IMG/VR virus record: IMGVR_UViG_3300009593_000095
Location: 1-27,860 of that record
DNA length: 27,860 bases
Source: a virus
Direction: 5' to 3' (one strand)
Part shown: positions 8,545 to 27,860 of the stretch, in pieces
Numbering within the stretch: the stretch's first letter is position 1
How the letters are laid out: each line of letters starts with the position of its first letter
The notes under the pieces: generated by a model
Told to the model about the DNA's origin: nothing
The model's input: only the letters and a program-made list of their open reading frames with translations
Databases searched by the model: none
Position numbers and translations under genes: made by a program

Positions 8545-9050
8545 GCGTAGTGCATACTCCTATCGTTCTTTTTATCTTTTAATTTGTCACCTCTCTGACG
8601 TTTTTCACCAGTTTCTCCATACTTTTGTGGATGTGAACCTGGTTTTTCATGTCCCAACCCTTCAGATTTTCTCTTACTCTTATCAGTATAATGTAGTCTT
8701 GCCTTTTTACCTGGTTTCTTAGTGATTACAGATTCCTGACCTTCTTCACGACCATATTCTCTCATCTTCTTACCAAACGCACGTCTTGACATATTTTTAG
8801 GTTTAGTAACAGAATAAGATACTTCTCTACCCTCAACTCCATCATCATATTGATATCTACCAGTTGTCTTACGATAACCAATACCACTTTTCTCTAACTT
8901 AGATTCAAGTCTTCTTCTCTTTCTACGATTTTCATCCTCATCATCACCACGATCAGCAGAGATGTGACCAGTATCTTTAGTTCTAGCATTACTCAATTGT
9001 CTTGCTAGACCACCTTCACATAGTTGTAGAAATTCTTGAAAAGTTCTCAT
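8541..9050 (-). CDS. Highly basic protein with capsid-targeting-like N-terminus, 169 aa
   Basis: Family not named. The first residues, MRTFQEFLQLCEGGLARQLS, resemble the T4 capsid-targeting sequence. L10-C11-E12 followed by Gly-Gly fits an L/I-x-E cleavage site of a T4-type prohead protease. The body is extremely rich in Lys, Arg, Glu and Asp, with a basic patch ENRRKRRRLESKLEKSG (about residues 40-56). A more ordered segment follows, GYRKTTGRYQYDDGVEGREV, then MREYGREEGQESVITKK and LHYTDKSKRKSEG. The tail is His/Gly/Lys-rich (GSHPQKYGETGEKRQRGDK). The start overlaps the stop of the DUF4815 gene (TAATG). Nucleic-acid binding or packaging inside the head would suit the charge, but that is inference. 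It is the largest of four translationally chained small genes. Confidence 0.8.
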   Translation of the reverse strand: MRTFQEFLQLCEGGLARQLSNARTKDTGHISADRGDDEDENRRKRRRLESKLEKSGIGYRKTTGRYQYDDGVEGREVSYSVTKPKNMSRRAFGKKMREYGREEGQESVITKKPGKKARLHYTDKSKRKSEGLGHEKPGSHPQKYGETGEKRQRGDKLKDKKNDRSMHYA

Positions 9051-12000
9051 TACGCTAATGCAATCGCTCTAAAGTCTTTTAATCTAACTGGAACACATTC
9101 ATTTATAGATGACATCACTATTTTGATTACAAATCCATCAAACTGTTCCAAATCATTTATGGTAAACTGATATTCTGAGAAATCATTTTGACCATTCTTC
9201 TTAACTTGAGCATCTGCTCTACCATCATTTAAACCTATATCAATAATATCATCACCAAAACCATCACCATCAGTATCTATTAAATTCTTATATCCAGGGA
9301 AGGCTCTGTATGTTTGAGAAACTTCACTAGAATCAGCACTGAATAGTCTGTAGAATACTCTAAAGTCTGCTTCTGGTTGTGCATTAGCACCAACAAATAC
9401 TTTTAATGAACTTGCTGGTTGCTTCAAATTAACTCTCTTAGATACGAATATTGAACCATGTGGATCATTTTCTAATGAATTTGATCTTGTATCAGTAGCA
9501 TAATCCAATACTGGAGCATTAATCTTATTTCTACCTAAAACAAAAGTAGCATATTTTGCATCCAATACTGGAGATAAATTACTATCAGTTGATTTGAAAT
9601 CAACCTTTAATGCTAATGATTTATGCTTAGGTAATGTACTTAATCTAAGTGATTCATTAGTTTTGGATGCTACTAATCTTGGTGTTGGGAAGAAAGTAGT
9701 TTCATTTAATATAGTTGGTTCAAATCCTTGATCTATAAAGGATACTTCAGATCCACCAGCACTAGTTCCACTAACGGTCCTAACTGCTGTATTAACAAAA
9801 GTTCCCTTACCAGGAGTAATCACATTAAACTGTGGGGATAAGGTACTGAATTGATGGTTCTGAGATACTTTCACAGTCTTACCACCTACAGCTTTTTCAC
9901 TAGTAAAGCATACTAATGCCTTATTATCAGCAACATTATTACCTCTAGGACCAGTTCCCCTATCAATTTCTAAGAAATAGTTATCAATATTTGATTCAGA
10001 TCTAAGTGTAGTATTTGCAGGAACATTTATAGTACTATTAATACCAGCTAATGGGAATCCATTTATCTGATATGGTTGAACAGAAACTCCTGTACTGTGT
10101 CCAATTGCAGTAGAACCACCAAGTCCTCTACCATCAAGTGTTAACTGTCCAGTTCCTACAACATAAGAAACAATTTCACTCTCTATTAGAGCATCACCTC
10201 TATCTGTTGCGATACCAGCAAAATTAACGAATGATGAAGTAGAAGCAACTGATACTAATGTGCCACCTAAGGTTAAATCAGCAGTTGTTTGAGTTGCTAC
10301 AGAATCTGGTTCGATTCCTTCAAGTTTAACAGCATTATTTGCACCATGATGTCCGTGATTGTACTGTACAACTTCAAGAACATTACCTGTATTAAGATCA
10401 CTAAGAACTTCAGAATCTGAACTTACAGTTCCACCTGTTGCTGCAGTTCTAGTATCATTTGCAGCACCATAATGAATAAGGTTTTGACCTTGCTTGAATA
10501 CTTCACCTTGAACATCTGTTAGATGTATTGTATCTAATGTAGAACTAATTGCTTTAATTGCAAATTTAGCACCAGCACCTCTTGCAACCAAAGCACTACT
10601 GTTATCGATAGTAACAACATCACCAAGAGCGAATCTACTACCAGCAGTAATATTTTCAATTAATTTAACTGCTCCAGTAGTACCATCAATAGTAATAGTT
10701 GCAGTTGCGCCAGCACCATCCCCACTTATTGATTTGATAGGAATAGTATTAGCAATAGGATCAGGATCTGCTGATTGGTTAGTAAACTGATATTGTGTAC
10801 CACCATAAACTAACTCTGGTTGTGTACCAGTATTAATAGGAGCAAATACATTTTCAACTACACCAGTAATACTTCCGTCTTCTTCATCTGTAGGAAGACC
10901 AGTACTCATCTTTCTACCAACAGGAGCATCTGCAGCAGCAAGACCAGAAACTTTAACTTTTAATTTTCTAGGTAAAGTTCTGATTGGGTTGTCAGGTAAT
11001 GCTTGAGTATTTTCATTACCTGCTTCAACTGGACTATTATAGAAAGTAACTGTACCATTCTCTACAAACGCCGCTTTATATAATTGGAATGTTAAATCTT
11101 GATACTGACTTGGAGTCCAAATTGTACCATTCTGTGATTTAAATAAACTACCACCAATATATTGCTTAGTACAAACAGCAGATTCAACATCAGGTAGATT
11201 TGCAGTTTTAACCGTCTTCTGACCCATAGTTGAAACCCACATCTCATACAAATCAGATGCTGGAGATAAAAATACTATTGCATATTCCTTACCACCTTCT
11301 AAAAAGACTGGTGATGGGAATTTAATATTTGTTGCTATAGAAGCATCTATAGATGTTGTAATATCTCTTGGATTTAATGAAACTTGTCCATAATCCTGTA
11401 CTAGGAAGTTTGTTGGTGTTCCCAACTCAACATCTCTAATCTCAACAAATACTTTAGCTGCTGGATCTTTACTTGCAAAGTAAACATCAACAGAAGTTAA
11501 GAACATACCAGTTTCATCAACTCTGAATGATTGTGCTAGAGGATCCCTATAAGGAGCTTCTATTCTTACAGTCTCTGATGTTTGACTAATGTTTATACTA
11601 GTTGTAGTCTCATTAGGTCTTTGTGCAGGTTCGGGTGGATTTCTAACTCCAACTGTAGATGTTTGTTGTGTAAGGATCGTTCCTGTTGCATGATAGGTTC
11701 CTGTTGCATCACTTGCAAGAGCAGTACTTCCTGGTAGGGTTACTGTTCCTGGAGTAGTAGCAGTTAACTTAAATGTCTTAGTTCCACTATAAAACAATAC
11801 TGGTGGTTGTGGTGTTTGATTCGCATTTCTAAAGAAGAATGCACCTAAAATATCACCCCAATTATCTGACATTAATGCAGAGTTTGTTACTGTTGCTGTT
11901 GCACCACTAGATTCTCCAACAATTGAACATCCATCTGTCACATATCCAAAGTAAGTTTCGTCATTTGCTAATGAAACAACATCAGCATTAAATAGGTTTG

Positions 12001-15000
12001 ATGTTGATGAATAAGCATCAGATGGAGCAGGTCTTGTTCTATCAAATATATCAACTTGATAAGTTTCTACACTTCCATTTAATACATTAATTCCACTTGG
12101 TTCTCCCATAGGAACTGCCATTACACTTGCATCACCGTACTTATGTTCGGGAGCCATTACCCTAACTTTACCTATCTGCTTACCATTCTTAAAGATGATT
12201 GCATCTTCATATACGGAAAAAGTACCAGAAACCATATCAATTTGGATTACTTTAGGGAAAACATCAGGAATTCCACTATCAAGATAATGGTAATGCTTAG
12301 TAAATGGTTTTAATCCATTTCCATTAAATGCAACGTTCCTAGAACGCATGAATGGATCTGTTGCACCACTAATCTTAATACTCTCAACATAATCAAATTC
12401 ACGGTAAATATCATTTTCTAATTGATTAGTAAAGCTTAATTCTTTTGTTGTAGTTGTGGTTGTAGTTGTAGTTGTAGTAACATCTGTATGATTACCATCA
12501 AAAAATCCATGTCTGTCTGGATCATCCAATCCTGGATCAACTTCAACTTCAGTTACAACTACATCTGTTTGTGTTGTTGCGTTCTCAGAAACAACATTTG
12601 ATTGCTCAGCCCAAGTTGCTCCAGTAGATTCTGTTCTATAATCATCAACATATATTGTTCTAGTCCAGTTATCTGATGGTGGATCTAAAATAACAGCACC
12701 AGCAAATACAATAACGTTGAATGGGTTAATGTTTTCAACTTGAGTTGCTTGAAGATTCTTAATTTCACTAGCAACTTCATCATATTTTAATGTAATTAGA
12801 TCTCCAGTTTTTTGGCAATTATCATCAAGTAATTTTAAATTTGCACTTCTATCACAAGAATTCTCATCTATTGAAGGATCGAATGCCAAATCTGCCTTTA
12901 ATGACCAGAAATCAACAGCACTAATTAATTCTTTATTAACAACATCAACATCACATCTAGAACCTTGTGTTCTATTGAAGTTAATGAAACTTCTATCTTT
13001 AAAATCATTTACTACAAATCCAGTTTTAAATCTGGTTAATCCATCAGCATCAGTAACTTGTATTGATTTAGTATCCAATTCTAATGCAGTAAGAGAAGTC
13101 ATTACTTCTAAGTTAGCAACTCTCTTTTCAATTTTACCAATATCTCTCATGGTAAATCTTCTATTATCATATAACCTAATGTTTGGTCCTTTTACAGGAT
13201 CATACAAATAAGGTGGAAGTGTTATTTGTGCTACTTCCATAGAAGGTCCTAATTCAGTAGGTGGTGCAGGATTATCTGCAGAAACACCCTTAATTAGTTT
13301 TACCTCTTCAAATTTATTAATAACTAATTTGTCTATTCTAGGTAAGTAATAAGTATATCCAATAATAGAAGTTTCATTTGGAGCAACAACATACTTAGAT
13401 ATTGATTCAAATGTTCTAGCAGCAAAATCAAAAGGTGATTTATCAGTTGTTGTAGATGGATCAAATGGATTAACTCTAGGTCTAAAGTCTAAGATATCAG
13501 TTCCTCTATCTAAAGCTATATGGGGAACATCATGAGTATATCTATCCTTATTATAAGAATTTGCAGTAAATAAATCTGCACTCTCTGCACTTTGAGTCTT
13601 ATAATAATCAAAGATAACCAATAATCTATTTGTTGGTGGAGAAGAATTTCTCTTCCTGACAATTTTAGAGTAATCGCTATATTGTTTCTTATGACCTTTA
13701 TCTAAAGTATAGTTTGCAGTTCTATCCACATAGTTACCATTTGTTATACCTTGTAGATTAGTTTCAATATTAGATTCATAGAATGTAATAGCTTCTCCTT
13801 TAGAGAAAGTATTATCATTTAAATACACATACTCAATTTCTGTTGCAGATACTCTATTAACAATTTGACCGATTGCTCTACTATTCTTACCTATAAATTT
13901 CTCACCAATAATTGTATTTGTATCTAATGCTAATCCAGAAACAAATGTCAATTTATCAAGAGATGGTATATTTGTATCCTTTGATTCATATACTGCATGA
14001 ATTTTTACAGCATCAGGAACATTTAATGAAATCTCATTATCTTCAACTCTCAATCCATAATACTTACTTGATACAAGACCACTATTTGTAGATACACCTA
14101 CCTGTCTTGTTACTTCTAATTTATGACTTCTAACAAAATCTTTAGATCTTGTTTTTAAACCAACCTTCTTCAAGGTTACATTTACAACACACTTAGTACT
14201 TGCAGATAGTCCACTAAATGCAATATCATTACCAGCATTTGTTATAGAAACTTGATCTGCACTTAAAGGTTCTGTACTTCCATCTTCATAATGAATAGAA
14301 TATCTTTCCTCATCAAATGTTTCAAAGAAAGCACTACCTATACCAGAAGAAACAAACGCTGAACCACTACCTGTAGTTCCTTCTAACGCTGCATTAGTAC
14401 TAAAAGATAATGTACCATTTGCAGATGTTTCTCTTTCTGCTACCTGACGATTAATAAGTAGAGTTGAATCTGATAAATCAACAGAAGAAACATTCTTCTT
14501 AGGCAATCTACTGTACAAACCAGAATTAGCAAGATTAAGAATCTTTGGATACTTAATTCTGAATATATTTGATGTAGTTAATCCAGCAATAATTTCACCA
14601 CTATTAACATCAGCAATATTAGTGATAGGTGCTAGTCCCATGCTTGTACCATCTGCAGATATGGAAGTAACTCTATTATAAGTTTGAAGTCCAAAATCTG
14701 TAGAATATCCTACAATAGTATCTGTTTTTACTCCAACTTGTCCTGAAAATCTTCTTCTAGGAGATTGTGCTGTTGCACTATTACCATTAGCAGCACCACT
14801 TACTGTTAATGGATCAACTATTGAAAAATTGGGTAATACTTTATCATACAGAACAGTATCTGCACTAAAATCACTAGTATTTGTAAGACCAGTTAAACCA
14901 TTGAAATCTTGGAATACTGATTTAATATCATCTGTTGTATATGCAGTAACAGTAATTACAGAACAATTGGTTGCTTTTATCTCTTCGTTGAATATTAACT

Positions 15001-16591
15001 TCTCTCCTTGAATAAATGTTCCAGTTGTTTGCGTTACATAAATTTCTGCTGGATTATGAGCTGCAACATATCCTATTGCACCACTACTAAGTCCTCTAAC
15101 ACGACTAGAAAGTGGAGCAGTAGTTGTAATTGTTCCAGGATTGGAAATATTTAATACTGTATATGTTTGAACATCATATAGATGAAGATCCCATTCTGAA
15201 CCAGTTCCGCTATATTCTGCAGCAGAAAGTCCAAATGCATAAACACGGGCTTCACCAATTTTTGTTCCAGCACCCGCAGTTGGGTTAAGAGCAGCACCTT
15301 TTCTTTGACTGTGAAGAGCAATAGTATTAGCAGTAGATCCACCAACATTAATCCAAGGAGTACCTTCAACATTATTAACTTTCACCAAACTACCCATTCT
15401 AAATGGAACGGATGCTTTGTTTATTGTCTTCGTATCTCTTGGCTTATCTACATCTAGAACTGTAGTGCCTGGTAATGTTACATCAAATCCCCTAACATAT
15501 GCCTTACCTGGAGACAATTTAACACACATGGTATCTTCTGAAGGATCATTACCTTCATCAGTCTTTTGTCCTTCTACATATAAACCATTTGAGGAGATTT
15601 CATCATTCAAAGAATTTTGAATATTAACTCTAAATGGATTTACTGCATAGTTACCAGATTCATCATATGTTCTCTTAGCAAAATACTTCTTAATTTCAGA
15701 ATATACTGAAGTATCTTGTAATTTCTTAATTTCGCCATTTGTAACACGAATTAATTCTACAAAATTCGTATCTTCAAAATCTAAAAGTGCTTTTTTCGCT
15801 AATTTAACACTTATTTTAAACCTATCTGCACCTGGTGCTGCATAGTTAGTAAATCCTTTAGCGTTATCATTTAGAGAAGAATCGTCATTTGCATTAATTA
15901 CAGTTTCAGATATCTCAAGACCAACTCTATATGATGGTTTATTTGAATATGGTTCTAATATAACAACATCTTTAGTAACATTAACAAAGACTCCTCTTAT
16001 AAAATATACACCATGATCAATACCAACTGAAGATCCAATAGTGCAAGGTTCTTCTGTTAATGTTGTTAAAATAGTTTCACCAGCATTTAATGTAGTATTT
16101 CCATAAGTAATATTTTCTTCAAGTGTTAAAATTTCCTCACCAGGGAACATTTCACTTATTGAACTTGTTCCAGATTCGTTATACTTTACAAAAAGAGTAA
16201 TATCATCAACACCTTCATCTGGTGGTAAGACATAATTCTTGATAGTACCAACTATTTGAGATTTCTGTCCTCTAACTTTAGTACCTTTTCCATTATTATT
16301 GTTTACTAATGCATCCAAATATATTGTTATATCAATCCCTAAATGATCTGGATTTACTTTTACTGAAAAATATGTACTATCGTAGGTAACTGCTCCAGGT
16401 ATAACCATAGAGCCTTCTTTGAAGATATGACTTCCAAAAGATTCTAACTGATTCTGCAATATTGACTGGAGACTTGTTAGTTCTCTAGCTTGAACTGGAA
16501 ATCCAGGTTTAAACAGTACCTTATAAAAGTTATCTGCCTTATCAAAATCATCATAATAAGGACTTATATTTAAGTTAGTCTTTTGTGGCAT
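9050..16591 (-). CDS. Giant DUF4815-type baseplate/tail structural protein, 2513 aa
   Basis: The N-terminus is the recognisable part: NLNISPYYDDFDKADNFYKV followed by LFKPGFPVQARELTSLQSIL and FKEGSMVIPGAVTYD is the opening of the DUF4815 family of phage structural proteins. Around residue 1680 a second recurring block begins with DPLAQSFRVDETGMFLTSVD, continues with FVEIRDVELGTPTN, and ends with FLEGGKEYAIVFLSPASDLY. The C-terminal ~150 residues (KRVNLKQPASSLKVFVGANA, DFRVFYRLF, EYQFTINDLEQFDGFVIKIV, VRLKDFRAIALA) form a third conserved-looking domain. Between are long Gly/Thr/Ile-rich beta segments and an 11-threonine run at residues 1372-1382. No catalytic motif, coiled coil or membrane segment was seen. 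It occupies the place of T4 genes 9-12, six bases after gp8, so a baseplate periphery or fibre-attachment role is likely but not proven. ATG is preceded by AAAGAAA as a weak ribosome site. Confidence 0.9.
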   Translation of the reverse strand: MPQKTNLNISPYYDDFDKADNFYKVLFKPGFPVQARELTSLQSILQNQLESFGSHIFKEGSMVIPGAVTYDSTYFSVKVNPDHLGIDITIYLDALVNNNNGKGTKVRGQKSQIVGTIKNYVLPPDEGVDDITLFVKYNESGTSSISEMFPGEEILTLEENITYGNTTLNAGETILTTLTEEPCTIGSSVGIDHGVYFIRGVFVNVTKDVVILEPYSNKPSYRVGLEISETVINANDDSSLNDNAKGFTNYAAPGADRFKISVKLAKKALLDFEDTNFVELIRVTNGEIKKLQDTSVYSEIKKYFAKRTYDESGNYAVNPFRVNIQNSLNDEISSNGLYVEGQKTDEGNDPSEDTMCVKLSPGKAYVRGFDVTLPGTTVLDVDKPRDTKTINKASVPFRMGSLVKVNNVEGTPWINVGGSTANTIALHSQRKGAALNPTAGAGTKIGEARVYAFGLSAAEYSGTGSEWDLHLYDVQTYTVLNISNPGTITTTAPLSSRVRGLSSGAIGYVAAHNPAEIYVTQTTGTFIQGEKLIFNEEIKATNCSVITVTAYTTDDIKSVFQDFNGLTGLTNTSDFSADTVLYDKVLPNFSIVDPLTVSGAANGNSATAQSPRRRFSGQVGVKTDTIVGYSTDFGLQTYNRVTSISADGTSMGLAPITNIADVNSGEIIAGLTTSNIFRIKYPKILNLANSGLYSRLPKKNVSSVDLSDSTLLINRQVAERETSANGTLSFSTNAALEGTTGSGSAFVSSGIGSAFFETFDEERYSIHYEDGSTEPLSADQVSITNAGNDIAFSGLSASTKCVVNVTLKKVGLKTRSKDFVRSHKLEVTRQVGVSTNSGLVSSKYYGLRVEDNEISLNVPDAVKIHAVYESKDTNIPSLDKLTFVSGLALDTNTIIGEKFIGKNSRAIGQIVNRVSATEIEYVYLNDNTFSKGEAITFYESNIETNLQGITNGNYVDRTANYTLDKGHKKQYSDYSKIVRKRNSSPPTNRLLVIFDYYKTQSAESADLFTANSYNKDRYTHDVPHIALDRGTDILDFRPRVNPFDPSTTTDKSPFDFAARTFESISKYVVAPNETSIIGYTYYLPRIDKLVINKFEEVKLIKGVSADNPAPPTELGPSMEVAQITLPPYLYDPVKGPNIRLYDNRRFTMRDIGKIEKRVANLEVMTSLTALELDTKSIQVTDADGLTRFKTGFVVNDFKDRSFINFNRTQGSRCDVDVVNKELISAVDFWSLKADLAFDPSIDENSCDRSANLKLLDDNCQKTGDLITLKYDEVASEIKNLQATQVENINPFNVIVFAGAVILDPPSDNWTRTIYVDDYRTESTGATWAEQSNVVSENATTQTDVVVTEVEVDPGLDDPDRHGFFDGNHTDVTTTTTTTTTTTKELSFTNQLENDIYREFDYVESIKISGATDPFMRSRNVAFNGNGLKPFTKHYHYLDSGIPDVFPKVIQIDMVSGTFSVYEDAIIFKNGKQIGKVRVMAPEHKYGDASVMAVPMGEPSGINVLNGSVETYQVDIFDRTRPAPSDAYSSTSNLFNADVVSLANDETYFGYVTDGCSIVGESSGATATVTNSALMSDNWGDILGAFFFRNANQTPQPPVLFYSGTKTFKLTATTPGTVTLPGSTALASDATGTYHATGTILTQQTSTVGVRNPPEPAQRPNETTTSINISQTSETVRIEAPYRDPLAQSFRVDETGMFLTSVDVYFASKDPAAKVFVEIRDVELGTPTNFLVQDYGQVSLNPRDITTSIDASIATNIKFPSPVFLEGGKEYAIVFLSPASDLYEMWVSTMGQKTVKTANLPDVESAVCTKQYIGGSLFKSQNGTIWTPSQYQDLTFQLYKAAFVENGTVTFYNSPVEAGNENTQALPDNPIRTLPRKLKVKVSGLAAADAPVGRKMSTGLPTDEEDGSITGVVENVFAPINTGTQPELVYGGTQYQFTNQSADPDPIANTIPIKSISGDGAGATATITIDGTTGAVKLIENITAGSRFALGDVVTIDNSSALVARGAGAKFAIKAISSTLDTIHLTDVQGEVFKQGQNLIHYGAANDTRTAATGGTVSSDSEVLSDLNTGNVLEVVQYNHGHHGANNAVKLEGIEPDSVATQTTADLTLGGTLVSVASTSSFVNFAGIATDRGDALIESEIVSYVVGTGQLTLDGRGLGGSTAIGHSTGVSVQPYQINGFPLAGINSTINVPANTTLRSESNIDNYFLEIDRGTGPRGNNVADNKALVCFTSEKAVGGKTVKVSQNHQFSTLSPQFNVITPGKGTFVNTAVRTVSGTSAGGSEVSFIDQGFEPTILNETTFFPTPRLVASKTNESLRLSTLPKHKSLALKVDFKSTDSNLSPVLDAKYATFVLGRNKINAPVLDYATDTRSNSLENDPHGSIFVSKRVNLKQPASSLKVFVGANAQPEADFRVFYRLFSADSSEVSQTYRAFPGYKNLIDTDGDGFGDDIIDIGLNDGRADAQVKKNGQNDFSEYQFTINDLEQFDGFVIKIVMSSINECVPVRLKDFRAIALA
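12446..12478 (-). repeat. Microsatellite-like run encoding 11 consecutive threonines
   Basis: Eleven Thr codons alternate almost perfectly between ACT and ACA (one ACC) in the DUF4815-type gene, residues 1372-1382, flanked by HTDV and KELSF. The hexamer-like alternation suggests slippage expansion. The stretch probably forms an exposed linker between two structured halves of the protein. Confidence 0.9.
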
Positions 16592-16597
16592 TTTTCT

Positions 16598-18199
16598 TTA
16601 GAATTCCAGGATGATTTTAACGTCTTCTTTTTGTCTCTCATTACGAGCGATCAAAGGTCTATTGTCTAAGTAAACAATCTCCCCTGATCCTTTATTTATC
16701 TCTGAATTGGATAACCCATTTGAGAAGTTAACTCCCAAATCAATTAACTTAGTTCCAGTTGGATTAGTTGTTATTCCACTAAATGAGGTATTAATACCTG
16801 CAGAGAAGTTGGAACTATCACCTTTTATTGCATTTGATGATGCTTCAAAGGAATAAATTGCACCAGAAGTTGATATACCAGCATAATCAGTTTGATCATT
16901 TGTAGCCTTTGTATAGTTTAGGGATCTATCTCTAAAATACTTCATCACTTTAGTATCAGCATCATATGAAGCAACATATCCTTGAGCAATTCGCCCATTT
17001 GTCAATACTTGTGTTATACGCTCACCAACCTTTGGTTCAACTGATCCACTAAGCGATTCAAAAATGAATGCTGATGTTGATGAAAATGTAGAATCACTAT
17101 AAGTTACTGCTGTTCCCACTTTAGTTGGGTTCTTAACAATACCTACCTGTGCAAATTTAGTATCAGATGGGAAATCTTTTGTAGAATCGTCAAATCTAGC
17201 ATATACCAAAATTCTATCAGTACCTAATTCCTTGTAAATATCATATCCATGACCCAAGGATGGAGGTATAATAGGAACAAGTTTTGCTCTCTGGTTTGAT
17301 GGATGAGCAGCATCTTGCAATCCACCCAAATCTACTAGTCCGTAACTATAACCATTTCCACCAGAACTAACAGTAGCATTAGTTATTTTACCACCTACTA
17401 CATCAACTCTTGCCTTACCGCCGTCACCATCACCTAATATATCAACTTCTTGTCCCAATCCATCAGCATATTTACCGCCAGCATTAGCAATATAAATGTG
17501 TTTAATTTGATTGTTGTTTAGAGTAGAATTTCCATTCTCTCTAACAGCTTTAATTTGGGCATCTGTACTAGTTGACCAATCATTAGGAACAGTAATATAT
17601 TCTGTAGAGTCAAACTTTAATATATCTGCAGGTGAAACAGTATAAAGATACTTCCAAATATAACCATCACCACTAGTACCTGCTCTAGAAGGTTCTAAAT
17701 CGGTGAACATTGGTTCATCTTGAGAAATATTCCCAGTTGGATTATCACCACTTGAACCATTTGAAATGCAAACATATACTTTGAACTCAGAGTTCATTAC
17801 ATAATAACTTGCACCATATAATCTACTAGAATCATTTATAGGACTCTGTTGACCAGATTCGGTTGAATAATCATCACGATACATTTCATATCTTTTACCA
17901 GCAGTCCAATCTATTCTTCTAATAATTCTTCTTATGTTAGCAGAAGCAATTCTCTTAGCAAACATCATAGTATCGCCCACATGAGCAGTACTAGAGAAAC
18001 TATCTAAAGGTTTTGGTGTTGAATTAGTTTTATTCCAATCACTAGATCTTCCATACCCAACTTGAACACTAGGTGATGGTGTTCCTGTTGGATTAGACAA
18101 TCCAATAAAAACATAATATGAATTTTTTTCTGATTCTACTGATTCGACAAAATTGCTTGCGTTTAAGATTCTAAACTGATCAGTAACAATTGCTGGCAT
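16598..18199 (-). CDS. 8: Baseplate wedge protein gp8, enlarged
   Basis: gp8 is a dimeric wedge component joined to gp7, gp10 and gp6 in the T4 baseplate. Matches to T4 gp8: N-terminal VTDQFRILNASNFVES (T4 VTSKFRTEKMLNFYNS); YYVFIGLS and VGYGRSSDW (T4 TIFITFGRSEPW); IIRRIDW (T4 VIPRRDW); GDGYIWKYLYTVSPAD then STEYITVPNDW at ~177-207 (T4 GDGYVWEYLFEIPPD and NEYIVVPW); and C-terminal GSGEIVYLDNRPLIARNERQ then DVKIILEF (T4 GEMIYMENRPPIIMAMDQ and INILFTF). It has 533 residues against 334 in T4. The extra length is mainly after residue 207 and includes a GDGGKARVDVVGG/SSGGNGYSYG beta module at ~235-295. It has its own late promoter 31 bases upstream and lies six bases before the DUF4815 gene. Confidence 0.95.
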   Translation of the reverse strand: MPAIVTDQFRILNASNFVESVESEKNSYYVFIGLSNPTGTPSPSVQVGYGRSSDWNKTNSTPKPLDSFSSTAHVGDTMMFAKRIASANIRRIIRRIDWTAGKRYEMYRDDYSTESGQQSPINDSSRLYGASYYVMNSEFKVYVCISNGSSGDNPTGNISQDEPMFTDLEPSRAGTSGDGYIWKYLYTVSPADILKFDSTEYITVPNDWSTSTDAQIKAVRENGNSTLNNNQIKHIYIANAGGKYADGLGQEVDILGDGDGGKARVDVVGGKITNATVSSGGNGYSYGLVDLGGLQDAAHPSNQRAKLVPIIPPSLGHGYDIYKELGTDRILVYARFDDSTKDFPSDTKFAQVGIVKNPTKVGTAVTYSDSTFSSTSAFIFESLSGSVEPKVGERITQVLTNGRIAQGYVASYDADTKVMKYFRDRSLNYTKATNDQTDYAGISTSGAIYSFEASSNAIKGDSSNFSAGINTSFSGITTNPTGTKLIDLGVNFSNGLSNSEINKGSGEIVYLDNRPLIARNERQKEDVKIILEF

Positions 18200-18247: not shown

Positions 18248-21200
18248 TTATAGTCCACTAACAATTCGGATAGAACCAGTATTTCTTAGTCCAAATTCAG
18301 AATTTAAACCTTCAAAATACCTTCTTTGAATTGTTGGGAAAGTTGATAAACCTGAATCAACTGTCAAACCAGTAACCCCAATAGAAATTGGAGAAGTTGA
18401 TCTTTCCCCATTATATATTCTACCCCAAGATAAAGTTCCTAACGAAGTTGTTAATCCAACGTTAGTTATATCATAATAACCAGTTTGAGCGAAACCAGTA
18501 GTGTTAGTTGAACTTAAGATATCGCATGTAATTTCTGCTCTAAAGTCGCTAAGTTGTGAGAATGTATGAACTTTGTAAATGTTATCTAGGAAGTGTGTTC
18601 CAATAGCAACTACGCTATTATCATGCCCATCAACAGAAGTAACTCCATCTCCTATTGTAGTATCTTTAATTAACAGTGGATATCCAACTGCTAACTTATT
18701 AGCATTTGATTTATGTGAAGTAAAGAAGAACTTAAGTGCCTTGGTTCCTGCACCACCAGAACCTTCTACTGAAGCAATTCCAGTAATAATTCCTGTATAA
18801 CCCTCAACATTATCAAATGAAGTCATTTCCTCTGTTTGATAACGAGGATTTTTGATGATTACTTGTGGTGGATTTGTATAAGTGTATCCCAATCCAATAT
18901 TGTCTGTTGATACAGAATCAACTTTACCGTTTACAATATTTGCAGTTGCTTCTGCAAATGTAGAAACTCCAACTTGTGCATACTCATTTTTAACTGTTGT
19001 TCCAATACCAACTCCAATTGGTGCTGCGATTGATAATGTAACTGCAGAACCAACATAACCACTACCAGATTCAACAATAGTGAATCCTGATATATCACCC
19101 TTAGCAGAAACAGTTGCGGTAATTGCTGCTGCTACTGAATTATCAGGTGACATTAATAATGCATCTACTGCAGTAATATTAACGTTATACCTATCAACAG
19201 TTCCTAATGCAGGGTTAGCATCATCTTCATAGAAGAATGCTTCTGCATCATCAACAAATATTCCACCAATACCTGAGTTTCCTGATGTAAGGCTAACATC
19301 ACCAATAACTTTTGCTGTTGGATAAATCTGTGGTTCAATAATTTCTCTTGCTTTAGAGATTAATTCACCCTTAATAATCTTATCTTCCTTCTGTTTTGTC
19401 CAATCAACAGGTTTGAAGTCAGACTCATTAATACCTTTTCCTCTGTATAGAGTTGTTTCTACAAGATCAGAACCAAGAATGTCCTTAATAATTCTATCCT
19501 TCTCCTGATCTATAGTATTTGTAAATGCAGGATTCTTAAAGATGCGAATATCATCACCAATCTTGATAGTTTCATTAATATTAACTATCTCAACATCAAC
19601 TCCATCCTGTCCCTTATAGAAGAATACATCAACTTTATCTTTTACTGATGGTGCTTCTGTGAAGGTAAATGTTGTTCCACCTTCAAATTGGTATGCAACA
19701 TTAGGAGTCTGCATAACACCATTTACAAATATTACTAGAACTGCATTTAAATCAATTTGCTCTCCTAGTAGAGATTCTTCATCAATTTCAAAACTTAATA
19801 ATTGTCCATTTCGGAATAGTGGGAATCTCTTTCTGGTTCCAGTTTGCATAGGTGAAATATCATCTATGAAATCTAACTCACCAAACTGCCAAGCAGCAAA
19901 GAAATCGTTAAATGTTGATACAACTTCTAGTTGGAACTCTTGTAAAGGTTTCTGCAATCTCTTATCAGTTACTAATCCGATTGGTTTTAATTTGTCACCA
20001 ACAGCGAATGAGTAACCAGATCTGGCAACATCAAATTCTGAAATCTCAAACATGCTTCTAGCAGTTCCAACATTAGTTGTTGCTGGAGTAACATTAAGAT
20101 TCAATAGTAAATTTCTACCAGTATCTTCTGTTTTACCAATACCTAATCTAGAAATACCAACAACTGGCATATTTTCGTAAATTGGTTCTGGTGTTGAAAC
20201 CTCAGGATTAACATATCTTGAACCCTGATTAGTAACAGTAAACTCTAAAGCACCACCAGTTCCAGCAGGAGATTTACCTACCTGCAATCTCATAGTGTTT
20301 ATTGTTACTCTACCTACAGGTAAATCTGTATGATATGCTGGATCAGTTATACGTGGATATAGATGATTTGTTTGATAAACATCTTGAGCACATTGGAATA
20401 CCAAAGATCCTGGTGTAATTTGAACAGAAGCATTTGATTTCTGAATACAGTTGGTTACAGTTTTACCAGGTACAAATGTATGTGTAAATTGAGATAATGA
20501 TGGACTTGGATTTACATTAACTTTAAATGTGTTAGTTGTTACTGCATAAATTGAAAGCCATCTTCCACTTGCGTAATCAGTCGGTCTTGGATATCTGTGT
20601 TCTGTTTGATTATTATCCTTTGTACAGGTAAATGTTAACCCATAATCTTCAATTAGAATCTTATCACCAACAGAATAACCGTGATTTGCCTTAGTTAGAG
20701 TTAGATTTCCAGTATTCTTAACATAAGATGCATTTGTTGGTGTTGTTAAAGATGCACCAGAAATGCCATGATTGTTACTAATAACAACCAATTCACCAGT
20801 TGTTGGATCGTAAGTTACATTACTTGCTGTTGTAGATCCATATGAAACAGTAACTCCCTGATACTGAGGTGGAATACCAACATTTACAGTTACAGTAGTT
20901 CCTGTTACAGCAGTAATTCCTAATTCTCTATTATATGCAGGATCAGATGTTCTTGGATAAGCGTGTACTGTTGCATGATCATCAGCATCACAAGTAAAGT
21001 TAAGTGCTTTAGATTTTATTGTTAAAGTATTTAATGCTCTCTTAATAGAACCTGCTGCTCCACTTACAAATGTATGTGTGTCTGTATTAGTAGAAGGAAT
21101 TGTATCTAATATTTGAATATCAAATGTATCTGTCTGAACATTAGAAATTGCAACCCACTTATTACTAATAGGATCACTAACACGAGGATATGCAGTTGTT

Positions 21201-24200
21201 GCATTACCACTTACAGCACCAACATTACAAGTAATAGTACCACCAGATTGATCAACAGCAGTTATTGCAATAGCAGTATTATATGCAGGATCAGTTGTAC
21301 GTGGATATGTCTTAGTCTTAACGTTACCGTCAGCAGTACAAGTAAAGGATAATTTATTAGCACCAATTGTAACTGTATCACTAGTTGTAAAACTATGCGA
21401 TCCAATAGTCATTACACAAAGACCAGTATTAGGATCATATACTGCATTTGTTACATTTTTCTGGACACTACCAGCAGTAATTGTAATAGCATTAGTTGAT
21501 GTTCCACCAACCCACGTATGTGCTGAACCTACACCATATTGGCATTTAAATGTAACTGCACCATCATCGAGTCTTACATAGTCACCATTAGAGAAGTTAT
21601 GACCAGTAATCTTCAAGGTCATAACACCTGTAGTTGGATTATAACTAGTGCCTGATTCTGCCTGATGTGAAGTAGCAGCAGATAATCCAGTAGTAGATCC
21701 AATATTTAATTCTAATTCACCTGTTACTGCATTATATGTGGCAGCAGAAACAGATTTCTTCGTAGTGCCAACAGTAATAGCATCCCACTTATTAGTTCCT
21801 ACAAATGTATGAGTTCCAATAGAATTTACAAACTTATGCTTATTTGTTGCAACCTTAGCGGTAAATAATGCACCAGTTCCTCCTCCACCACCAGATCCAA
21901 CATTAACACTAATAGTATTAGTTGTGGCATCATCTAATCCTAATGTCTGTCCTGCAGCAGGATCAGTAGCACGAGGATATGGATGAACACTAACATGCTT
22001 ATCTCTAGAACAAGTAAAGCTTAAAGATTCTGTTCCAATAGTAACTGTGTTTGTTGCTCTCTTAATAGAATCTACTGCTACAGGTAGATTTGCAACAAAT
22101 GAATGTGTGTAATTACCACCCGTCTTAACTGCATTTGCATCTGCACCAGAGAAAGTATGTCTTGAAGTATGTGTTGATGGTACTGTATCTAAAGTTTGAA
22201 TCGTAATAGTTGTATCAGTAACAGATTGAATATTAATTGCAGTATCATGATAAGGATCAGATGCTCTTGGATATGCCTTTTCAGCAGTATTATCATCAAG
22301 GTCACAAGTAAATTTAATTGATTCTTGATCAAGTTTGATGCTAGTTCCTGGTTTTAATGTATGAGGACCAACTGTTATCTCCATTAATCCTGTTGTAGGA
22401 TCATATTCAGCAAAGGTTGGTGTGAATGCTACTTCTGGTGAAGCACCAACATTAATATCAAAAGTAAATTGAGTTACATTTGATATTGCTATCCACTTAC
22501 CACTTATTGGATCTGAAGGTCTAGGATAAGTATGGTTGCTACCATTACTATCCATAGTACAAGTAAATGTGATTGAATTATCGGCAATCTTTATAAGATC
22601 ACCATTAGAGAATCCGTGACCGTTAGTCAATACACCTGCGGTGATTGTCATCGCACCAGTTGTTGGATTATATGTTGCACCATTAACATCGTGTGTGGTT
22701 GCAGCAGTTAATCCATGATTGTTTCCAAGAGTTAATATTAATTCTCCAGTTGATGAGATATAATCTACAGTCTCAGGTGTATATTGAGTTCCTGTATTAG
22801 CGGTAATTGAATTTGTATTTGATGAAACAAATTTATGTACAAACTGTATATCAGTAGCTCCGATAGAAACTGGATCACGATATCCAGAACCAAATGTTAG
22901 ATCGTTATACCATTCATACACACTTCCACCACCGTGATAGTTGTGTGAAATTGTTGTTAAACCTGCTTGAACTTCAAATGTTCTCTCAGATATAATACCA
23001 ACTATAGGTAAACCTCTTTCATGATCTTGGAAGAAGTTGGTTGTAACACCAACATATCCACCATCACCAATTGTTTTTACTGCGTCAGATGTTGCTGAAA
23101 CGAACGTGTGAGCACCTGTAAAGGTTGGTGCTGTTCCTAGTAGGATATTTACCTTAAACGTATTTGTCGTTACGTCAGAGACGTATAGGTACTGATCATG
23201 AGCAGGATCGGTAGCACGAGGATATGTCTTATTCTGACTTGCTGATGTAACTTGCCCAACATTAACTGAAAGTGATGTTCCAGTTACTCCAATAATTGGA
23301 AGAACTTGACCAGATGCAGGATCAGTAGCACGAGGGTATGAATGATTTGATCCGTGAGAATCCATATCACAGGTGAATGTAACAGCACCGTCAGCAAGTT
23401 CAATAGTGTTACTTGTAGTTAAAGTATGAGGTCCAATCTCTAATACCAATTCACCAGTTGCAGGATTATAGGTTGTACCAGTTGCAGCAGTTTTAGTAGA
23501 ACCAGTATTAGGAGTAATAGCGTTTGGAACACCACTTACGAATGTATGTTGACCTTCACCACCATTACAAGTAAATGTTAATGAATCTTTTTCAAGTTTG
23601 ATTGCATCTCCATTAGAAAGACCGTGATCATTAATCTGTAAGGTTAAATCTCCAGTAGAGGCATTATATGCTGTTGAACCTGTAACAACTGTTCCAACAA
23701 CATTAGTTGGGCATCTAAATTCCAAATGCTTTAGATGAACTGTAGTTGGATACTGTAATGCATATCCATGAACAGAACTTGTTGTAACTGTTATGATTCC
23801 AGTAGTGTTATCATAAGCAGCAGTCTGAATACCAATTTCATACTTAGATGATGCACCTATTCCAGTAATCTTATCAATAGAACCAGCAGCAAATAAATTA
23901 CTGTTACTCTTTAGGTTAGGTTTAACTTTAGCACCGACAAGTGGAGCATATCCAATACCTGGAGTAGAACCCATAGAAACAATCAATCCACCTCTTGGTA
24001 GTTGATTCTGATTAATATCAAAATCAGATTGCATAGGAGTACCATTCTCTGAAGATATTCCAGTAAAGATAACGCTAGAAATACCAGCAGTAGAATCTGC
24101 TTTTATCTCATAGTTATTACCTGCGTTGTTTAATGTAAGAGGAGTCTGGAATACACCGTTAATGAATAAGATACCATTTCCAACAGCAACACCAGTTTCA

Positions 24201-27200
24201 GTATTAGCACCACCAACAGTCATCGTATAGGTCTTACCAATTCCAGTAAATGTATCTGAAACATCATCAAACACCATATTAGTGTCATAATTGCTTCTTA
24301 AGAAGGTTCTACCACTAAATTCTGCTCTTACATATGGTAAGTTTGTGTCATTCCTTCTTTCTCTAGTATTTCCTTTTGGTGGATCTAAGAACCATACTGT
24401 ACTATCGACTATATTGAAGGATCCTCTGTGAACCCTCGTAGCGGTTGTGTCAGCGTGAGAAGTTGCTGCTATACCCAAAGCTCCTCTATTAACTCTAACA
24501 ACTGGTAGAGTACAAATACCGAGGGCAACATCAGTAGAATCGTTTATAGTTCCATCAAAAACACTTGCAAATCCTACTTGCTCAACCTTCATATATTCAT
24601 TTTCAATCTTCAATACATCTCTTGGTTGAACCGAACTAATTCCACTAAGAACAAACTGAGATGTTCCAGCACCAATAGCACCATCAAGTGTATGTTCAAT
24701 TGAAGTAAATGAAATTGGTTGCTGAACAATACCATCTAAACCAATAACAGTCTTAGATAGTTTCTTAGTCATATCAAGTTGGTGTGCATTACCTTCACCA
24801 ACACCAGTAAATGTTATTGCAATACCAGATGAAATATACTCCTTTCTACTGAATAACTTAAATTTATTTTCATTAGAAACCTTAACAAATACTTTTTCTG
24901 GTAAAATATCAGTTGTAATACCAGCACTATTAGTTGTAGATCCTATTGATACTGCAGTTGATCCAACACCAACAAATGTTGATCCAGGAGTATAAGTTAA
25001 TTGCTCATTATCATTAAAGAAATGATCTGGTATGGTAAACTCACCAGTTACCATGTTCAACTGAGTTGAATCTGCAGGATTGAATACTTTAGTATAAATT
25101 GGAATATCATTATGTTCCAATTCAAAATTAACTTTATTTGCTCTGCTTCCATTTACACCATCATAAGCAGATAATAATATACTCTTCTCTGCAGGTCCAA
25201 CCACTAGAGATGATGGAGTATTGCGGAAATCATTTATTGTATTGAATACTTCATTATATGCCTGAACTTCAATTAAACCTGTTTGTGAAGCATCAGGATA
25301 GAAATTAATATTAATATTATTTCCAGATGTAATTGCTCCAATTGTACCTAATCCAGAATTAGATTGTCCTGTGAATGGGTATTGTATAGTAGTTGCAGTA
25401 CCATCATCCTGTAAAACAACTGCCTGATGTATAGCAGATTCAGTAGTACTAGAAACCCTTACAAGAGTCTTAACTGAACTATCAATTCTCTTATCAATTG
25501 TAGAGATCAATATTGGTGTTGAAGTTCCTGAATGATAGGTTGATTCCAATCTAGCACTTCTCTCAGCACCTGCAGGTTGTCCAGGAACTGCATATCTGTA
25601 TGTTCCTACTCCAACTGGTCCATTACCATCAATAGTTACACCTAAACCAACAACATTTGCACTTGCATTAATTACCCTCTTCGTATCATTTTCACATTCA
25701 AAATAAATTGTACCAGAATCGTATCTTGCAGTAAGAACTCCAACTCTAGATGCACTATAAGAAACGTTTAATGCATCAACATAAGTTTCTGCATAGAAGA
25801 TATTAGTCCCATCAAAGTCTACTATAACCTCACCATAGTTAAGTTCCTTAGTGATATCATCCTGAACTAGAACATCAGCAAAGAATCCGTTAAAGTCTGA
25901 TTCTGGGAATTGTGCTATTATTGTTGTAGTAACTCCAATAATATTATCATTAGCATCTGTTTGTCCAATTGCAACTTTTACATTAGCACCAGTTAGATCA
26001 ATCTGCCCTATTGAGGTTGATTCAGTCTTAATTGCATTAGTAACAAACTCTGTTTTAAGGATCTTAATATCATGATCCCTATCATACTTATCAGTAGGTA
26101 AGAAGTTTAATGCCTTTCTCTGGAATGCATCTGATGTTGCCTCAAAATCACCCAACTTCATATTTGTAAAGTCTGATGATTTCTCAACTAAAAATGCATT
26201 ATTTGTAGTTGTTAATACTGCAATTTCTGATAATTGAACATCTAATGTATCTGCATTAACAATTTGTACCAAATACTTAGTAAAGTTACCATCAATTTCT
26301 TCTACTTCAGTAAATACATCTTGGAATCCTTTACTTGAGAATCTTCCACTAATATCATCATGAATTAGAACTCTGTTTGACTTACACTTCGTATAGTCTG
26401 TTAATTTTGTATTTTGGAATGTTGCAAACTTAGATTTTGTTGGATTTACTTCAGGTCTAGCATCATAATCTCTTCCAAAATCAAAGTTGTTGATTGTATC
26501 AACTCTCTTATCAGCCATAAGATCAACAACTATAACTGGAGTTGCCTGAATTGTAGTTCCAATACCAACAACAACAGAAGATGTTATACCAACATCAGAG
26601 AAATTCTTAAGTCCTGATGGGTGAACCAATCTGTTAAGAGGGTTAACTAGATCATCCCAAGGAACTGGACTCTTAACTGAGTATGATAGATTCTGGTAGT
26701 AATCATTATTTGGTATAACTTGGAAATCTTCATTTAATTTTCCAGTATTATCCAACCAACCATAATCCTGTCTATTGGAATAATCAACCTTAAATTTAGC
26801 TCTATTGCCAGTAATACCAGTTACTGTTGCACTAACATTACTATTAGCACCCTGTATTCTATCACCAACCCTTAATTGATAATTGCCATCAATTTTAATG
26901 AAATCTTCTCTAGATTCTACTACTGTTAATCCCCTTTCAATAAACTTATTTGTACCTTTAACAAGAATACTTTCATTAAGTAGTAATAAACCTCTTTCTT
27001 GAACAACATCAAATACAGGATAGTTCTTTCTATTAATAATATTTGCATAACCAGACTGATAAGTCTTAGCAATACCAGGATTAGTTGTTAATCCAGCAAT
27101 ACTATACTTTAGAATAGCAGGATTTGAATTTACATAATCATCAACTATAAAGAACCTATACTGATAATTTGCAGAGTTATAACCATCTCCACCAGTAGCA

Positions 27201-27860
27201 ATACCAGAAGAGTTTGTATTGGTTTGTGTTCCAATACCTGCTTCACCAAATAATTCAACACCTTCTACAAAAATCTCATCTCCAGTTGCAAATGGTGGGT
27301 TCACAAACCCGTTTATTGGAGTTTCTAGAACACAAGTAACAATTCCACTTCCACCACCAGTCATGGAACTAATTCCAACACCATTAGAGTTGTTAATAGT
27401 AACAATTCTATGAGTTACTGATTGTAGTCCTTGAATAGGTGCAACAATATTAACTTCAGAAATTGATTGATGTGGAGTTTCTGCGGTTAATGAAGTTTCA
27501 TCTACAACTTTATCAGCCTCAGGATCATAAACAATAACATCTGGAGCAGATAGGAACTGATTACCACCATCTACAACTTCAATAGATTTTATACTATCTA
27601 CATTATCAATCCTAATTACAGGAGAAACAAATGCTTCTGGACTTAGAGTTTTGTCTGATGGATACTCATAACCAATATCAAGAATTCTTACATCATTAAT
27701 TCTTGCAATTGATGTAGAAAGTGCTACAACGTTTGCATTTTTTCCTCTTTCACTAACAATCCTTTCAAATTTTGGAATCTTCTTATAATCAACACCCTTA
27801 GAAATTACTTTAAGGTCTTTTACTGAACCAATTACAGACTTAGATTCTGTTGAGTATTCA
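18248..27860 (-). CDS. Giant virion structural protein in the gp7 position, 5'-truncated by window (at least 3203 aa)
   Basis: The frame is open from the window edge to the TAA at 18248-18250. The ATG at 27364 is internal: the preceding 165 codons are open and encode similar sequence (for example VVDGGNQFLSAPDVIVYD), so the true start lies outside. Visible parts in order are as follows. A GGxxY-type beta module lies at 27530-27580, and a segment with NDYYQNLSYSVKS and NRLVHPSGLKNFSDVG at 26590-26710. An NGVFQTPL domain lies near 24150, a ~3.5 kb tandem-repeat region at 20275-23820, and a second NGVMQTPNVAYQF domain near 19710. Two further GxGY modules lie near 19060 and 18880, and the C-terminal signature FPTIQRRYFEG/GLRNTGSI near 18300. 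The place upstream of gp8 corresponds to T4 gene 7 (1032 aa), a wedge protein, but I see no clear gp7 sequence match. As I recall, cyanophage genomes carry comparably large 'VrlC'-type structural proteins here. Role in baseplate or side fibres is inferred. Confidence 0.88.
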   Translation of the reverse strand, partial: EYSTESKSVIGSVKDLKVISKGVDYKKIPKFERIVSERGKNANVVALSTSIARINDVRILDIGYEYPSDKTLSPEAFVSPVIRIDNVDSIKSIEVVDGGNQFLSAPDVIVYDPEADKVVDETSLTAETPHQSISEVNIVAPIQGLQSVTHRIVTINNSNGVGISSMTGGGSGIVTCVLETPINGFVNPPFATGDEIFVEGVELFGEAGIGTQTNTNSSGIATGGDGYNSANYQYRFFIVDDYVNSNPAILKYSIAGLTTNPGIAKTYQSGYANIINRKNYPVFDVVQERGLLLLNESILVKGTNKFIERGLTVVESREDFIKIDGNYQLRVGDRIQGANSNVSATVTGITGNRAKFKVDYSNRQDYGWLDNTGKLNEDFQVIPNNDYYQNLSYSVKSPVPWDDLVNPLNRLVHPSGLKNFSDVGITSSVVVGIGTTIQATPVIVVDLMADKRVDTINNFDFGRDYDARPEVNPTKSKFATFQNTKLTDYTKCKSNRVLIHDDISGRFSSKGFQDVFTEVEEIDGNFTKYLVQIVNADTLDVQLSEIAVLTTTNNAFLVEKSSDFTNMKLGDFEATSDAFQRKALNFLPTDKYDRDHDIKILKTEFVTNAIKTESTSIGQIDLTGANVKVAIGQTDANDNIIGVTTTIIAQFPESDFNGFFADVLVQDDITKELNYGEVIVDFDGTNIFYAETYVDALNVSYSASRVGVLTARYDSGTIYFECENDTKRVINASANVVGLGVTIDGNGPVGVGTYRYAVPGQPAGAERSARLESTYHSGTSTPILISTIDKRIDSSVKTLVRVSSTTESAIHQAVVLQDDGTATTIQYPFTGQSNSGLGTIGAITSGNNININFYPDASQTGLIEVQAYNEVFNTINDFRNTPSSLVVGPAEKSILLSAYDGVNGSRANKVNFELEHNDIPIYTKVFNPADSTQLNMVTGEFTIPDHFFNDNEQLTYTPGSTFVGVGSTAVSIGSTTNSAGITTDILPEKVFVKVSNENKFKLFSRKEYISSGIAITFTGVGEGNAHQLDMTKKLSKTVIGLDGIVQQPISFTSIEHTLDGAIGAGTSQFVLSGISSVQPRDVLKIENEYMKVEQVGFASVFDGTINDSTDVALGICTLPVVRVNRGALGIAATSHADTTATRVHRGSFNIVDSTVWFLDPPKGNTRERRNDTNLPYVRAEFSGRTFLRSNYDTNMVFDDVSDTFTGIGKTYTMTVGGANTETGVAVGNGILFINGVFQTPLTLNNAGNNYEIKADSTAGISSVIFTGISSENGTPMQSDFDINQNQLPRGGLIVSMGSTPGIGYAPLVGAKVKPNLKSNSNLFAAGSIDKITGIGASSKYEIGIQTAAYDNTTGIITVTTSSVHGYALQYPTTVHLKHLEFRCPTNVVGTVVTGSTAYNASTGDLTLQINDHGLSNGDAIKLEKDSLTFTCNGGEGQHTFVSGVPNAITPNTGSTKTAATGTTYNPATGELVLEIGPHTLTTSNTIELADGAVTFTCDMDSHGSNHSYPRATDPASGQVLPIIGVTGTSLSVNVGQVTSASQNKTYPRATDPAHDQYLYVSDVTTNTFKVNILLGTAPTFTGAHTFVSATSDAVKTIGDGGYVGVTTNFFQDHERGLPIVGIISERTFEVQAGLTTISHNYHGGGSVYEWYNDLTFGSGYRDPVSIGATDIQFVHKFVSSNTNSITANTGTQYTPETVDYISSTGELILTLGNNHGLTAATTHDVNGATYNPTTGAMTITAGVLTNGHGFSNGDLIKIADNSITFTCTMDSNGSNHTYPRPSDPISGKWIAISNVTQFTFDINVGASPEVAFTPTFAEYDPTTGLMEITVGPHTLKPGTSIKLDQESIKFTCDLDDNTAEKAYPRASDPYHDTAINIQSVTDTTITIQTLDTVPSTHTSRHTFSGADANAVKTGGNYTHSFVANLPVAVDSIKRATNTVTIGTESLSFTCSRDKHVSVHPYPRATDPAAGQTLGLDDATTNTISVNVGSGGGGGTGALFTAKVATNKHKFVNSIGTHTFVGTNKWDAITVGTTKKSVSAATYNAVTGELELNIGSTTGLSAATSHQAESGTSYNPTTGVMTLKITGHNFSNGDYVRLDDGAVTFKCQYGVGSAHTWVGGTSTNAITITAGSVQKNVTNAVYDPNTGLCVMTIGSHSFTTSDTVTIGANKLSFTCTADGNVKTKTYPRTTDPAYNTAIAITAVDQSGGTITCNVGAVSGNATTAYPRVSDPISNKWVAISNVQTDTFDIQILDTIPSTNTDTHTFVSGAAGSIKRALNTLTIKSKALNFTCDADDHATVHAYPRTSDPAYNRELGITAVTGTTVTVNVGIPPQYQGVTVSYGSTTASNVTYDPTTGELVVISNNHGISGASLTTPTNASYVKNTGNLTLTKANHGYSVGDKILIEDYGLTFTCTKDNNQTEHRYPRPTDYASGRWLSIYAVTTNTFKVNVNPSPSLSQFTHTFVPGKTVTNCIQKSNASVQITPGSLVFQCAQDVYQTNHLYPRITDPAYHTDLPVGRVTINTMRLQVGKSPAGTGGALEFTVTNQGSRYVNPEVSTPEPIYENMPVVGISRLGIGKTEDTGRNLLLNLNVTPATTNVGTARSMFEISEFDVARSGYSFAVGDKLKPIGLVTDKRLQKPLQEFQLEVVSTFNDFFAAWQFGELDFIDDISPMQTGTRKRFPLFRNGQLLSFEIDEESLLGEQIDLNAVLVIFVNGVMQTPNVAYQFEGGTTFTFTEAPSVKDKVDVFFYKGQDGVDVEIVNINETIKIGDDIRIFKNPAFTNTIDQEKDRIIKDILGSDLVETTLYRGKGINESDFKPVDWTKQKEDKIIKGELISKAREIIEPQIYPTAKVIGDVSLTSGNSGIGGIFVDDAEAFFYEDDANPALGTVDRYNVNITAVDALLMSPDNSVAAAITATVSAKGDISGFTIVESGSGYVGSAVTLSIAAPIGVGIGTTVKNEYAQVGVSTFAEATANIVNGKVDSVSTDNIGLGYTYTNPPQVIIKNPRYQTEEMTSFDNVEGYTGIITGIASVEGSGGAGTKALKFFFTSHKSNANKLAVGYPLLIKDTTIGDGVTSVDGHDNSVVAIGTHFLDNIYKVHTFSQLSDFRAEITCDILSSTNTTGFAQTGYYDITNVGLTTSLGTLSWGRIYNGERSTSPISIGVTGLTVDSGLSTFPTIQRRYFEGLNSEFGLRNTGSIRIVSGL
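20275..23820 (-). repeat. Diverged tandem repeats with YxPTTG, FTC...H.YPR and HTFV motifs
   Basis: About 1180 codons of the giant gene are built from repeats of roughly 80-120 residues. The fullest unit reads Y-x-P-T-T-G, two beta strands, H/G turn, GD-x-I, then FTC-x2-D-x5-H-x-YPR-x-(T/S)DP, then a V-T-x-x-T-x-x-V-N-V-G strand and often HTFV. I count ten YPR copies (near 20355, 20590, 20955, 21185, 21300, 21975, 22270, 22525, 23220 and 23335), eleven F-x-C copies and eleven Y-x4-G copies. Units are not all complete: some lack YPR, some have doubled Y-x4-G segments, and two long stretches look like later duplications of one another. Function unknown; a modular adhesin or spacer is likely. 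Confidence 0.9.

Follow-up and report, generated by a model that had tools for sequence, protein, structure and literature searches.

The closest described relatives of the protein analysed here are the gp7 proteins of T4-type phages. T4 gp7 itself (NP_049765.1) is 1032 residues long, and T4 has the gene order 6-7-8 in common with the Prochlorococcus phage P-SSM2 (Kyanoviridae). The gp7 of P-SSM2 (YP_214343.1, PSSM2_111) has 5195 aa, is annotated as a baseplate wedge subunit, and is encoded between gp6 and gp8. We analysed a repeat array in the orthologous protein encoded on the minus strand of a viral DNA of 27,860 nt (IMG/VR virus record IMGVR_UViG_3300009593_000095, positions 1 to 27,860; “the window” denotes this whole stretch). 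The array is modular, its units have an invariant core of a Cys residue and a YPR motif, and its length differs by module-sized steps between close relatives. On balance, we favor the explanation that small beta modules are strung together in an extension of gp7, that recombination would move these modules, and that the array would act as an adjustable spacer or surface.

Several families of the PHROGs database, i.e. phrog_2885, phrog_701, phrog_5342, phrog_18802, and phrog_1276, already contain the sequence. Of these, phrog_1276 (325 positions, without an assigned function) as well as phrog_701, phrog_5342, and phrog_18802 (general virion terms only) match several stretches of the unit region, but the PHROGs entries do not define a repeat and list neither nesting nor a copy number. 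A literature search found no description of the repeat. The repeat is real and widespread, and it is already catalogued as a sequence family while being undescribed as far as the literature was searched. A first-pass annotation of the window had recognized no named domain. This holds for Pfam and NCBIfam, in which no family scored above its cut-off for the array protein, but not for PHROGs.

For the identification of units, a hidden Markov model (HMM) was built from the units of the window and iterated over related loci. The HMM placed the array at residues 1412-2528 of a minus-strand open reading frame (ORF) of at least 3203 aa, i.e. at window positions 20276-23626. It contains eight complete FTC...YPR...DP units, two Cys-strand halves (starting at residues 1412 and 2087), and two YPR halves (starting at residues 1541 and 2220). 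The domain E-values of the complete units range from 1e-18 to 9e-29, and therefore chance can be excluded for the repeat. The repeats lie within the coordinates given in the first-pass annotation, but its ten copies are eight complete and two split units. The “incomplete units” that it had noticed do exist as partial stretches; they turned out to be halves of units that are split by an inserted complete unit. All eight complete units have the Cys and an Asp three residues later, and the YPR is preceded by His in six units and by Lys in the other two.

All features of the array are encoded on the minus strand, and they are described here in the order of the protein. The array is bounded by two conserved flanks that serve as anchors in the orthologues, i.e. 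residues 901-1375 on the N-terminal side (23735-25159) and residues 2546-3203 on the C-terminal side (18251-20224). The first host unit is split into a Cys-strand half (residues 1412-1435, 23555-23626; HMM positions 1-24) and a YPR-strand half (residues 1541-1573, 23141-23239; HMM positions 26-58). The module inserted into its Cys-YPR loop comprises about residues 1435-1540 (23240-23557) and contains a complete unit (residues 1478-1535, 23255-23428; 6.6e-24); it is absent in P-SSM2 and in the loci L032, L049, and L088. Three complete units follow, at residues 1748-1805 (22445-22618; 9.3e-29), at residues 1833-1889 with Lys instead of His (22193-22363; 1.8e-21), and at residues 1935-1988, a variant without the HGxxxGD entry (21896-22057; 2.8e-19). 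Block 2, about residues 2055-2275 (21035-21697), consists of the second split host unit and an inserted unit. The halves of the host unit are residues 2087-2109 (21533-21601) and 2220-2251 (21107-21202), and the complete unit nested between them spans residues 2155-2214 and has Lys instead of His (21218-21397; 5.5e-20). The last three complete units are found at residues 2277-2328 (20876-21031; 1.9e-20), 2393-2449 (20513-20683; 3.9e-26), and 2475-2528 (20276-20437; 1.2e-18).

The DNA of the window is 88.8% identical to that of P-SSM2 over 97% of its length, and the virus is a P-SSM2-like cyanophage whose host is probably the ocean cyanobacterium Prochlorococcus. The window encodes the C-terminal 3203 residues of the array protein and the stop codon (18248-27859, minus strand), while the 5′-end of the ORF lies beyond the window. 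The profile of phrog_2885 (baseplate wedge subunit) matched this protein with 2379.6 bits, and the best stretch was residues 1-1692. The gene directly downstream encodes the baseplate wedge subunit gp8 (16598-18199, minus strand; Pfam PF09215, 1.2e-15; phrog_438), as is expected for a T4-type gp7, and it is followed by a gene for a DUF4815 protein. The position of gp6 is known from the P-SSM2 orthologue; gp6 itself is located beyond the window. Based on synteny and annotation, the array protein is a gp7-like baseplate-wedge protein rather than a free fibre, although the same units do occur in tail-fibre proteins. In a profile comparison with hhalign, residues 197-296 of P-SSM2 gp7 alone matched T4 gp7 (residues 727-812, probability 83), whereas the array and its flanks had no match to T4 gp7. 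Because the likeness to T4 gp7 is limited to these roughly 100 residues, the array is located in a cyanophage-specific extension of gp7. The array itself may be positioned at the baseplate.

Two observations concern the surroundings of the array gene. The layout varies among Kyanoviridae (comparison with L002, L078, L079, L081, L086, and L089): P-SSM2-like phages have one giant gp7 adjoining gp8, and in others a gp9-like connector and a second large protein lie between a giant gp7 and gp8. In the window, a run of Thr in the 2513-residue DUF4815 protein (9050-16591, minus strand) is encoded in part by a GTTGTA tandem repeat (12447-12478).

The unit is not confined to gp7. The HMM matched 89 ORFs of the related loci, and the number of units in other virion proteins ranges from one (S-RIM8, ACG-2014b) to about 22. 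In P-SSM2, single units are also present in two tail fibre proteins. Among annotated phage records, all relatives of the unit belonged to phages of Synechococcus and Prochlorococcus or to unnamed marine viruses (E-values up to 1e-5 or 0.01; 326 and 292 records), and a few weak matches to other phages appeared at E-values up to 10. Plasmids yielded no match. In the genome collection, a relative was found on a contig that had been binned into a Euryarchaeota metagenome genome (NHGE01000052.1, locus L091) and contains a cyanophage-type array; it is probably a mis-binned phage contig.

The structure of three consecutive units was predicted with AlphaFold2 from 58 window and locus sequences. The mean predicted local distance difference test score (pLDDT) was 86, and a repeating pattern was obtained: one strand ends at the Cys, a short helical turn follows, and the YP lies in the next strand. 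For the first nested pair (12 sequences, pLDDT 89), the strand pattern of the unit was predicted in both halves as well as in the insert. Foldseek with the three-unit model retrieved no match in the PDB with an E-value below 0.001, and the nested model gave no useful match and none to FCCH. A sequence search of the PDB with the whole protein did not yield a match at E-values up to 1. The top rows for the three-unit model were endosialidase barrels (PF12195; 4hiz, 3gvk), with probabilities of up to 0.91 but TM-scores of only about 0.24, and six members had weak Pfam matches to PF12195, the best of them with 0.077. Tailspike domains and FCCH domains of E1 enzymes appeared lower down. The rows for the FCCH domains of UBA1 and UBA6 had probabilities of about 0.4-0.8, and the match to the E1_FCCH structure 2v31 was weak (probability 0.80, target TM 0.45, E 0.24). 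The entry YxPxTGxxTxTxxxHGLxxGD of the E1_FCCH beta-barrel (PF16190) matches in 23 of the 58 family stretches, the best with 1.1e-6. In singly examined members, however, this match is restricted to positions 2-25 of 70 and does not reach the Pfam cut-off (best member 28.1 against 29.5, positions 3-25 of 70), the Cys-YPR hairpin falls outside the matched part, and the stretch of the window itself has no match to PF16190. The models thus suggest a small beta module that resembles E1-FCCH and endosialidase barrels weakly and below the thresholds, and the unit is best termed FCCH-like, without being a member of E1_FCCH.

The closest rival to a spacer function is that the array is a receptor- or carbohydrate-binding surface under diversifying selection, so that swaps of modules alter host specificity. 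The presence of the same units in the tail fibre proteins of P-SSM2 and in other fibre proteins would be in accordance with this possibility, as would the differences between the arrays of close relatives and the weak resemblance of the fold to domains of endosialidases and tailspikes. As context, virion structural genes were selected in an evolution experiment with cyanophage S-PM2d (PMC9910659), which we also counted in its favor. However, by synteny gp7 is a wedge protein and no known receptor binder, and the Pfam matches to carbohydrate-binding domains are weak and below the cut-offs. We regard a host-binding surface with swaps that alter specificity as possible but rather doubtful.

The length of the array was compared between the flanks that are common to 29 orthologues. 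It is far from constant, with values of 384, 400, 745, 759, 848-853, 953-955, 1068, 1168-1170, and 1693 residues, and at least seven switches between length classes are required by a tree built from the flanks. The protein of the window and P-SSM2 gp7 have the same flanks and the same array including block 2, but P-SSM2 lacks the first nested insertion, and its array has 1068 residues compared to 1170 in the window. P-SSM2 and AG-345-E02 also differ: the flanks of gp7 are 99.2% and 99.4% identical at the DNA level, yet P-SSM2 has block 2, about 215 residues, which AG-345-E02 lacks, and the identity of the adjoining stretch drops to 91.9%. The difference in the block together with this border fits an import or replacement by recombination. 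An assembly error is unlikely because the shorter length recurs in several other loci and the block is present in both records of P-SSM2.

Block 2 is likewise missing in L004 and L049. Its DNA in the window is 95.8% identical to P-SSM2, compared to about 90% for the flanks of gp7, which suggests an exchange of the block between phage lineages; over 292 bases, it is also 76% identical to the gene of a structural protein of P-SSM7.

Alignments showed that the half units of the window are one unit with a second complete unit between its Cys and its YPR strand. The orthologue of the host unit stays whole in L032, L049, and L088, and the nested layout recurs in P-SSM7 (L053), L036, L072, L005, and L011. 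Alignment and prediction both support that complete modules were inserted between the two strands of another module. The two nested units have 67% and 78% residue identity to units of other proteins, compared to at most 54% within their own array, which argues against a recent tandem duplication. A classic tandem expansion of the kind seen in bacterial adhesins, through slippage or unequal crossing-over, would explain that the copy number varies among close relatives. However, the near-identical tandem units that recent duplication leaves in such arrays were not found, as the identity between units of one array does not exceed 54% in the window and 69% in any array examined. In addition, the DNA contains no high-copy tandem repeats, and both inserts are closer to units of other proteins or phages than to their neighbors. 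Recent tandem duplication was rejected on the grounds of the low identity and the absence of such repeats, and classic tandem expansion in general is unlikely. The earlier proposal that recombination lengthens and shortens the array is supported by the range of lengths and by the 215-residue block, but the new blocks look as if they had been imported or inserted.

The conservation of the unit was calculated over 239 clusters of units (below 80% identity). None of the 239 clusters lacks the Cys or the Pro of YPR, and the Tyr and the Arg of YPR are retained in 98% each and the Asp of DP in 96%. The Asp at +3 is found in 91% of the clusters. The position before YPR is occupied by His in 74% and by Lys in 22%, so that a basic residue is present in 96%. 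The one Cys per copy, the usual Asp, and the His in most copies that had been noted in the window are thus features of the family, and homologues do not replace the Cys. At unit positions 16, 18, and 20 (the Cys), 100% of the residues are hydrophobic or Cys, compared to 24% and 2% at the mostly polar positions 17 and 19, respectively, and the Cys therefore lies on the likely buried face of the strand, as would be expected for a buried structural residue.

The Cys could also form disulfides between neighboring units or subunits, which would lock the array or tie it to a different protein of the virion. The enrichment of Cys in the array (13 of 1117 residues versus 6 of 2086 residues elsewhere in the protein) and the fact that it is never lost would be compatible with such a role. 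However, the single-unit proteins of S-RIM8 and ACG-2014b retain the Cys although there is no second unit to pair with, and therefore pairing of neighboring units, as the first-pass annotation had suggested, is not what maintains it. In complete arrays, the numbers of full units are odd or even (3, 6, 7, and 8), and the Cys faces the hydrophobic side of the strand. Altogether, a disulfide-locked array appears improbable, while a partner of the Cys in a different protein is conceivable.

The basic residue is missing in 6 of the 23 clusters without Asp, but only in 3 of the 216 clusters with Asp (Fisher p = 3e-5). This covariation of D23 with H/K29 was found at 80, 65, and 50% clustering (3e-5, 2e-4, and 0.0095, respectively), with shared ancestry reduced only through the clustering. 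It fits a salt bridge across the turn, unlike a metal site with a fixed set of ligands, and the sequences thus suggest that the Asp and the His or Lys form an ion pair. The proposed metal site of Cys, Asp, and His in each unit, which would stiffen the array, draws on the invariant Cys and the high frequencies of Asp and His, and three divergent loci (L058, L070, and L083) have some units that lack the YPR but contain the Cys, Asp, and His. Yet the ligand set is not conserved in every unit, as it would be in a metal-binding repeat: Lys replaces His in 22% of the clusters, Asp is lost in 9%, and units with short loops (CTQGGGTHAYPR), units with long loops (CNYNGATGSAAEKAYPR), and split units have the Cys and the YPR without the full Asp/His set (loops of 8, 9, or 13 residues instead of the usual 10). 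Together with the covariation of Asp and His/Lys as charges and the orientation of the Cys towards the hydrophobic face, this makes a metal site very unlikely.

In these units of the three divergent loci, HALP, HTLP, or HASP takes the place of the YPR, and the units may represent a subfamily for which the Asp/His set is of greater importance. In L058-L063, another stretch at about residues 1253-1320 of long ORFs (e.g. ILLECxxxxxxxxKVYPSFSIP) also joins a Cys to K-x-YP, which may be a distant relative or a case of convergence. Least probable, and hardly more than a speculation, is a chemically active Cys close to a basic residue and the Asp, with sites in series in one virion protein that would stiffen or trigger the baseplate array through a covalent or redox-sensitive link, e.g. 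a Cys-Lys bridge, or a disulfide with a different protein of the baseplate.

The favored explanation can now be described in full. The array would be a chain of small beta modules within the giant extension of the baseplate-wedge protein gp7 that is specific to cyanophages, and in each module a short turn would join a Cys strand (FTC) to a YPR strand. The invariant Cys would pack on the buried face of its own strand, and a salt bridge between the Asp and the His or Lys would clasp the turn. Recombination between virion genes of cyanophages would move the modules, and the array would act as an adjustable baseplate spacer or surface layer that positions host-facing parts and may contribute weak contacts to the host. 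Several points weigh against this explanation. Near its N-terminus, P-SSM2 gp7 resembles T4 gp7 over about 100 residues only, and this stretch lies outside of the window, which leaves the baseplate position of the array itself putative. The evidence for the burial of the Cys and for the salt bridge consists of the sequence pattern and the secondary structure, and the absolute invariance of the Cys exceeds the usual need of simple core packing. The nested cassettes have related linkers, and it is possible that the nested layouts descend from a single ancient composite module that later spread, instead of from many insertions. Lastly, the tree of the flanks is unrooted, so that gain and loss of modules are indistinguishable.

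Abundant marine cyanophages encode giant virion proteins that are rich in uncharacterised repeats, and one of these repeats, common to baseplate and fibre proteins, has now been defined. The mode of change has become concrete: whole modules differ between viruses whose neighboring DNA is more than 99% identical, and the changes include cases in which a module was placed inside a fixed loop of a second one. The unvarying Cys poses a chemical question, and the link between the composition of the array and adsorption to the host becomes directly testable in isolates such as P-SSM2.

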